DNA of 64,000 nt from Thermoleophilia bacterium SCSIO 60948 (GTDB lineage Bacteria; Actinomycetota; Thermoleophilia; Solirubrobacterales; 70-9). Below the pieces are notes generated by a model. The model did not search any database and had not been told where the DNA came from. It saw only the letters and a list, made by a program, of their open reading frames with translations. This document shows, piece by piece, positions 32,858-33,414 of the stretch. The first letter of the stretch is position 1; the number at the start of each line of letters is the position of its first letter. The DNA is taken from contig CP053031.1 in assembly GCA_021496505.1 (NCBI GenBank), positions 2,162,001-2,226,000 on the forward strand. Direction: 5' to 3'. A program made the position numbers and the translations under genes.

Positions 32858-33190
32858 GGAACGAGGGCGGACGCGTTCGGCCCCCGGGGGGCGGGTCGGC
32901 GGCCCGAGCGCGCCGGCGTGCAGCTCTCCACGCCTGTGGCGGGTCTCCGGCGGGGCTGATGGCACCGAGGGGAGTGGGTTCGGGCGGCTGGGGTTGCCCG
33001 CTGGGCGCCCCTCGAGGATCGAACGTCCCGGAAGTGCCCTTATAGGGGCACGTTTGGGACGTTCGGCTTCGATCGGCCGCGCCGAGCGCGACGAAATCGC
33101 CCCGCGCCTCTCGCACGACGACGCTGGGACGATCCATCGCGCTCGGGTGTGTCCCCGGTGCGCCGTTGTTCGCAGTTCCGCGCGTTCCCA
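32858..33190. other. Gene-free stretch upstream of radA
   Basis: No coding region is supported in the gap between the radA promoter and the clpC stop (full gap 32845-33414). This part holds a 44-base inverted repeat (33021-33064) but no open frame with coding-like composition, and I see no tRNA, tmRNA, SRP RNA or RNase P RNA signature. Confidence 0.6.
33021..33064. repeat. 44-bp interrupted palindrome in the radA-clpC gap
   Basis: GAACGTCCC (33021-33029) pairs with GGGACGTTC (33056-33064), and inside it GTGCCC (33034-33039) pairs with GGGCAC (33046-33051), around the AT-rich core TTATAG. The 4-base segments between the arms do not pair. It may be a regulator site or a folded RNA element. Confidence 0.6.
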
Positions 33191-33309
33191 GGGCGGGTGC
33201 TCGGGTTGTCCGCCCGGATGAGCTGTGCGGGCATGGATGCCCGCACCTGCCGGGGCCCCATGGATGGGGTCGGCCCCCTCATCCGGGTGGACTGCCCGAG
33301 CGCCCGCCC
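33191..33309 (+). ncRNA. Candidate structured RNA: 32-bp stem enclosing two hairpins with identical AUGGAU loops
   Basis: Arms 33191-33222 and 33278-33309 pair over 32 positions with one mismatch (33207/33293) and three non-Watson-Crick positions (33198/33302, 33206/33294, 33212/33288). All three are U-G in plus-strand RNA but would be A-C in minus-strand RNA, favouring the plus strand. Inside are hairpin 1 (33225-33246, 8-bp stem, loop AUGGAU) and hairpin 2 (33252-33277, CCCC/GGGG next to the loop AUGGAU, then GGGG/CCCC beyond a 4-base bulge). The result is a three-way junction. No known RNA family was recognised, and transcription has not been shown. Confidence 0.45.
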
Positions 33310-33342
33310 ACGCAGGCGAGCACAAGCTCCGAGAACGCGAAA

Positions 33343-33366
33343 CGCCCCGGCCTTTCGACCGGGGCG
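33343..33366 (-). terminator. Terminator hairpin of clpC
   Basis: CGCCCCGG (33343-33350) pairs with CCGGGGCG (33359-33366) around an 8-base loop. On the minus strand it starts 49 bases after the clpC stop and is followed by TTTCGCGTT. It could also end a plus-strand transcript. Confidence 0.7.
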
Positions 33367-33414
33367 CCTCGTCACGTGAGTTCTCTTGCCGGGATGTCAC
33401 CCGGCGAGCCCCCT

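Follow-up and report, generated by a model that had tools for sequence, protein, structure and literature searches.

The minus-strand genes radA and clpC are separated by a spacer that holds a long branched inverted repeat, and the question is what kind of element this is, and on which strand and in which form it acts. The arms of the repeat stand at the top of the inverted-repeat list of the window (the whole 64-kb stretch of DNA that was analysed); coordinates are given in Table 1.

Structure and genomic copies of the element

Of the outer-stem positions, 28 form Watson-Crick pairs and three are wobbles; the remaining one is a T-T mismatch. The sequence of arms and loops, the inverted-repeat list and the predicted fold bore out the stem of 32 positions with one mismatch and the two AUGGAU hexaloop hairpins described in the first-pass annotation. 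The three wobbles that it had reported are also present (two U-G and one G-U), and all of them become A-C when read on the minus strand. The plus-strand RNA was folded at -107.6 kcal/mol (z = -7.41; none of 200 shuffles equally good) and the minus-strand RNA at -98.5 kcal/mol (z = -7.17). A search near the element turned up neither a sigma-70-type promoter nor a U-tract site resembling a terminator. Immediately beyond clpC, a GC-rich hairpin with a short minus-strand T run (33344-33368) is likely the clpC terminator.

Table 1. Features of the element in the window
Feature	Position	Strand	Basis
Branched TwoAYGGAY-like structure, one of ten genomic copies	33191..33309	+	fold, genome search, model R1
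Outer-stem arms, 32 positions	33191-33222 with 33278-33309	+	inverted-repeat listing
Hairpin 1, loop AUGGAU at 33233-33238	33225..33246	+	sequence, fold, model R1
Hairpin 2, loop AUGGAU at 33260-33265	33250..33275	+	sequence, fold, model R1
Longer repeat unit of ~400 bp, branched structure at its 3' end	32915..33316	+	comparison of copies
46-bp palindrome within the longer unit	33020..33065	no strand	kept in five long copies

The genome (a single 3.42 Mb contig) was searched with a 131-base query, and ten copies were obtained, seven of which were 90-98% identical to the window copy and two 80-81%. The longer unit is common to five of the ten, with about 60 bp extra inside in three of these five; the remaining five are the branched structure alone. 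The 46-bp palindrome (CGAACGTCCC...GGGACGTTCG) also stands alone elsewhere (G000:C1:3087513-3087557, 2537157-2537204) and is possibly a separate repeat in its own right. Partial tandem arm repeats (GGGGACTGCCCGAGC.CCCGCC) follow the 3' arm in several copies, and a GCGTTCGGGGGACCGGGCGC module is common to several flanks (both in L003/L047, L009/L052, L004 and L005); the spacer is thus a mosaic of small repeats. The neighbours of the copies are unrelated (IMPDH and PfkB kinase; Hsp20 and phosphoglycerate mutase; DJ-1 and LysR regulator; ABC ATPase and glutaredoxin-like protein; sigma-70 factor and PHP protein; EF-Ts and amino acid kinase), and no transposase was found among the flanking genes. 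G004 belongs to the same family; there radA and clpC adjoin each other, and the spacer between them lacks the element. An RNA specific to this locus, as first supposed, does not agree with ten copies at unrelated loci. Copies elsewhere had been named as a sign of a mobile palindrome, and nine further copies do exist; yet the same copies supply the covariation described below.

Relation to TwoAYGGAY

The Rfam scan at the gathering score gave no family at the element; sub-threshold matches to CRISPR-DR29, DUF3800-IV and miRNA families were judged to be chance matches to GC-rich stems. The RF01731 model (TwoAYGGAY, clan CL00106) aligned both hairpins to its core and gave the element 21.0 bits, short of the cut-off of 43. 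A public-genome scan for two hairpins with these loops gave at least 120 stretches, nearly all of those listed being gammaproteobacterial, and three of the 14 tested sources, all gammaproteobacterial, exceeded the Rfam cut-off for TwoAYGGAY. The Rfam model is considered narrow, since three xanthomonad-type loci (L059, L069 and L082) likewise failed to appear at its cut-off. The copy in L082, from a record titled Bacillus subtilis SK7B5, is of this xanthomonad type and has a long GC-rich stem; its contig looks like contamination.

An independent covariance model (R1) was constructed from 15 gammaproteobacterial copies with a short hairpin 2; it matched the window at 33206-33296 on the plus strand (52.0 bits, E = 2.3e-10 per genome). 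Of 61 genomes searched with R1, the genome under study gave all ten of its copies and its congener G001 five; the 59 other genomes of the order gave nothing convincing, with no other match above about 23 bits. The RF01731 model gave no match over the 61 genomes, but as the controls likewise gave none, this does not speak for absence. A sample of 349 genomes of the class, examined with strict filters, held the element in the genome under study, G271 and G279 only, the latter two being members of one other genus. Phage and plasmid records were searched and gave no match to the element.

The first-pass annotation, which knew no RNA family with this shape, must accordingly be amended: as judged from the profiles, the element is a TwoAYGGAY-like variant, which matches by an independent profile and fails the Rfam score. 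In both, an outer stem encloses a pair of neighbouring hairpins with A[Y]GGA[Y] loops. The element differs from TwoAYGGAY in its score below the Rfam cut-off (21 versus 43 bits), its short hairpin 2 with a 3' bulge, its 32-position outer stem, absent from the Rfam consensus sequence, the embedding of five copies in the ~400-bp repeat, and its host lineage, which the 2010 listing (human gut, gammaproteobacteria and Clostridiales; PMC2864571) does not include. Gene content suggests that the host is a high-GC Gram-positive. The shared architecture, together with the patchy occurrence, suggests transfer or convergent reuse.

Selection on stem, strand and loops

Pairing was compared with controls in which the partners were slid. 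In the gammaproteobacterial alignment, both-sided changes were found in 17 of 17 modelled outer-stem pairs, and 76% of cells paired versus 36-47% with partners slid. For the class (genome under study, G001, G271 and G279), double changes were found in 24 of 33 pairs, 89.9% of cells paired versus 35-45% when slid, and the covariation score was 0.587 versus at most 0.126 for the slid controls; this alignment was fitted to the model and leans toward structure, and many of the ten copies are near-identical, yet the difference from the slid controls stays large. Covariation, for which a check had been proposed at first reading, was found in both datasets, and in the class the slid controls collapsed. 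In several gammaproteobacterial genera, each copy has a long near-perfect stem that differs in sequence from those of the other copies.

With a scoring that treated G-U and A-C alike, the outer-stem GU:AC counts were 129:33 in non-Pseudomonas gammaproteobacteria, 24:6 in Pseudomonas, 18:1 in the ten copies (which are non-independent) and 6:2 in G001/G271/G279. From this excess of G-U the AUGGAU strand is the structured one, in agreement with the plus strand first proposed. The simple reading is that this strand acts as RNA; were single-stranded DNA the structured form, G-T over A-C would likewise be expected.

The first search pattern fixed the loops; the loop tally used 36 further copies found with R1 without a loop filter (R1 was trained on AUGGAU, and therefore favours AUGGAU loops). 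In these copies position 1 was A, positions 3-5 were nearly always GGA, and positions 2 and 6 varied. Conservation among the copies compared was much higher in the loops than in the stems; G271 and G279 have an altered loop, with GGA retained within it. In the literature, the sites of CsrA, RsmA and RsmE are named ANGGA or CANGGANG, and by resemblance of the motif the loops of the element are putative CsrA-type sites. The earlier suggestion of CsrA/RsmA-binding loops is in accord with the ANGGAN form and the near-invariant GGA.

The search for csrA that had been suggested gave one CsrA in the genome (PF02599, E = 2.5e-23, MLVLTRK...APREVPVYRKE). As read from the translation, it retains L4, R6 and R44, which we take to be the RNA-binding residues of CsrA. 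CsrA was found in 16 of 19 carrier genomes, the exceptions being G001 (54% complete), G271 (78%) and one draft. It was also found in 45 of 61 genomes of the order, where the element is not common; therefore CsrA does not need the element. Binding of TwoAYGGAY to CsrA was proposed in 2014 on motif grounds (PMC4333381). In Pseudomonas putida, an Rsm pull-down recovered ISPpu8-adjacent spacers and a 'long palindromic region', the latter downstream of PP_3547 in strain KT2440 (PMC7937890), and these Rsm-bound spacers and palindrome may be TwoAYGGAY copies. RNAs of the CsrB/RsmY/RsmZ type, known from the literature, likewise present GGA in hairpin loops with more than one site per molecule; they carry many sites on one or two sRNA genes, whereas the element has two sites in each of many dispersed copies, and they sequester CsrA, whereas sequestration by the element is only predicted.

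The genome thus has ten copies, a structure on the AUGGAU strand under selection, near-invariant GGA loops and a host CsrA gene. With modest confidence, we favour the reading that the element is a dispersed REP-like intergenic repeat of the TwoAYGGAY kind, whose RNA would offer CsrA two GGA loops. The unrelated loci, the finding of only these ten in the genome by the independent R1 model, and the covariation make this somewhat probable; the GU/AC asymmetry, the GGA loops, the CsrA residues, the 16 of 19 carriers and the proposal of PMC4333381 point in the same direction, as would the P. putida pull-down if its palindromes are copies of this element. Against it stand the negative search for a sigma-70-type promoter near the element, where both neighbours are on the minus strand and a plus transcript needs its own promoter; the expectation of G-T over A-C for single-stranded DNA as well; and the wide distribution of CsrA, but not of the element, in the order. 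Transcription would cross the spacer in the AUGGAU direction, in most cases toward a convergent gene's tail, and the resulting RNA would fold into a long stem presenting two GGA loops side by side, on which we infer that a CsrA dimer docks. Jointly the ten copies would form a CsrA reservoir (sponge), and locally each might serve as a protected 3' end or halt readthrough or antisense RNA; the element would spread like REP/BIME repeats.

Placement of the copies and competing readings

Ten gammaproteobacterial carriers had 21-147 R1 copies per genome among at most 150 candidates scored in each. Neighbouring copies within 600 bp were 28 divergent, 7 convergent and 4 tandem at the pattern-selected loci, and pairs within 1000 bp were 15 divergent, none convergent and 1 tandem among the 150 model matches listed; the genome under study has one divergent pair (L048, 2157-2272 minus and 2345-2461 plus). 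We know of no report, in the open-access literature, of TwoAYGGAY pairing or of such copy number. The open reading frames of L084 and L126 showed no obvious transposase between the paired Pseudomonas copies. One antisense structure per gene tail was considered as an explanation of the divergent pairs and not borne out, most non-Pseudomonas pairs being called in co-directional spacers (by crude gene calls). Eight of the ten copies have a convergent gene on their 3' side, its tail 7-131 bp away, and in the other two the next gene 3' runs in the same direction; of 86 gammaproteobacterial cases scored (crude gene calls), 60 had a convergent 3' neighbour. Pseudomonas repeats are known for a tail-to-tail bias (PMC2718517), and such a general bias can explain much of this 3' placement.

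Selfish DNA (REP/BIME or MITE), whose single-stranded hairpins are recognised by a trans-acting transposase with the loops as the recognition motif and RNA as incidental, is a possible but rather unlikely alternative. The copy number (ten here and 21-147 in gammaproteobacteria), divergent inverted doublets like BIME-1 (PMC2817692), the patchy distribution with lineage-specific presence at radA-clpC, and a tail-to-tail placement shared with other Pseudomonas repeats (PMC2718517) are all consistent with it. With REP/BIME and RAYT-mobilised REPINs the element has in common that its copies are dispersed intergenic palindromes, with inverted doublets and tail-to-tail bias (PMC2817692, PMC2718517); unlike them, it is about 120 bp long and branched, with conserved tips and variable stems. 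REPs have a fixed sequence, whereas here stem sequence is freely exchanged with complementarity kept; the loops vary exactly where CsrA sites vary; and the ten copies adjoin no transposase. The Y1 (IS200/RAYT) transposase (PF01797) was detected in none of the four carriers of the class, including the genome under study, with control genomes positive. The element is not a RAYT-type REP. The selfish-repeat and CsrA readings are the main rivals, and the two can hold together.

As for what the CsrA-binding repeat would mean, TwoAYGGAY has been an orphan motif since 2010, with CsrA binding proposed in 2014. Here it emerges as a high-copy dispersed repeat with a strand-specific structure, exchanged stems, fixed GGA loops and divergent pairing, which a distant lineage that possesses CsrA also has; copy number, layout and strand bias make the old CsrA guess testable. 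If CsrA binds the copies, global Csr regulation gains a repeat-borne layer, which would be missed both by the present Rfam model and by any search aimed at single sponge genes. A bolder version, for which we would claim little probability, is a CsrA system that spans the genome and works in two directions, made up of divergent pairs and of single copies facing gene tails, and found also in the distant lineage: RNA crossing a spacer would end in two CsrA-occupied GGA loops before running antisense into the next gene, and at as many as a hundred sites or more CsrA would set 3' ends or silence antisense RNA.

Unlikely, too, is a reading in which the stem alone blocks transcription in both directions or stabilises RNA 3' ends, the loops serving another protein or none: the fold is very stable on both strands and the 3' side is turned toward a convergent tail in the proportions given above, but no terminator-like U-tract site was found, clpC appears to own the terminator-like hairpin at 33344-33368, and a plain roadblock needs no loops much better conserved than its stems. 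A stand-alone small RNA gene peculiar to radA-clpC, for which the stable structure there might speak, is scarcely tenable, being already contradicted by the ten copies beside unrelated genes and by the G004 spacer. Clusters of six and four copies (L089, 4881-5803, and L133, 5990-6953), each within 1 kb, were also observed on gammaproteobacterial contigs, one of the two with a 539-bp period.
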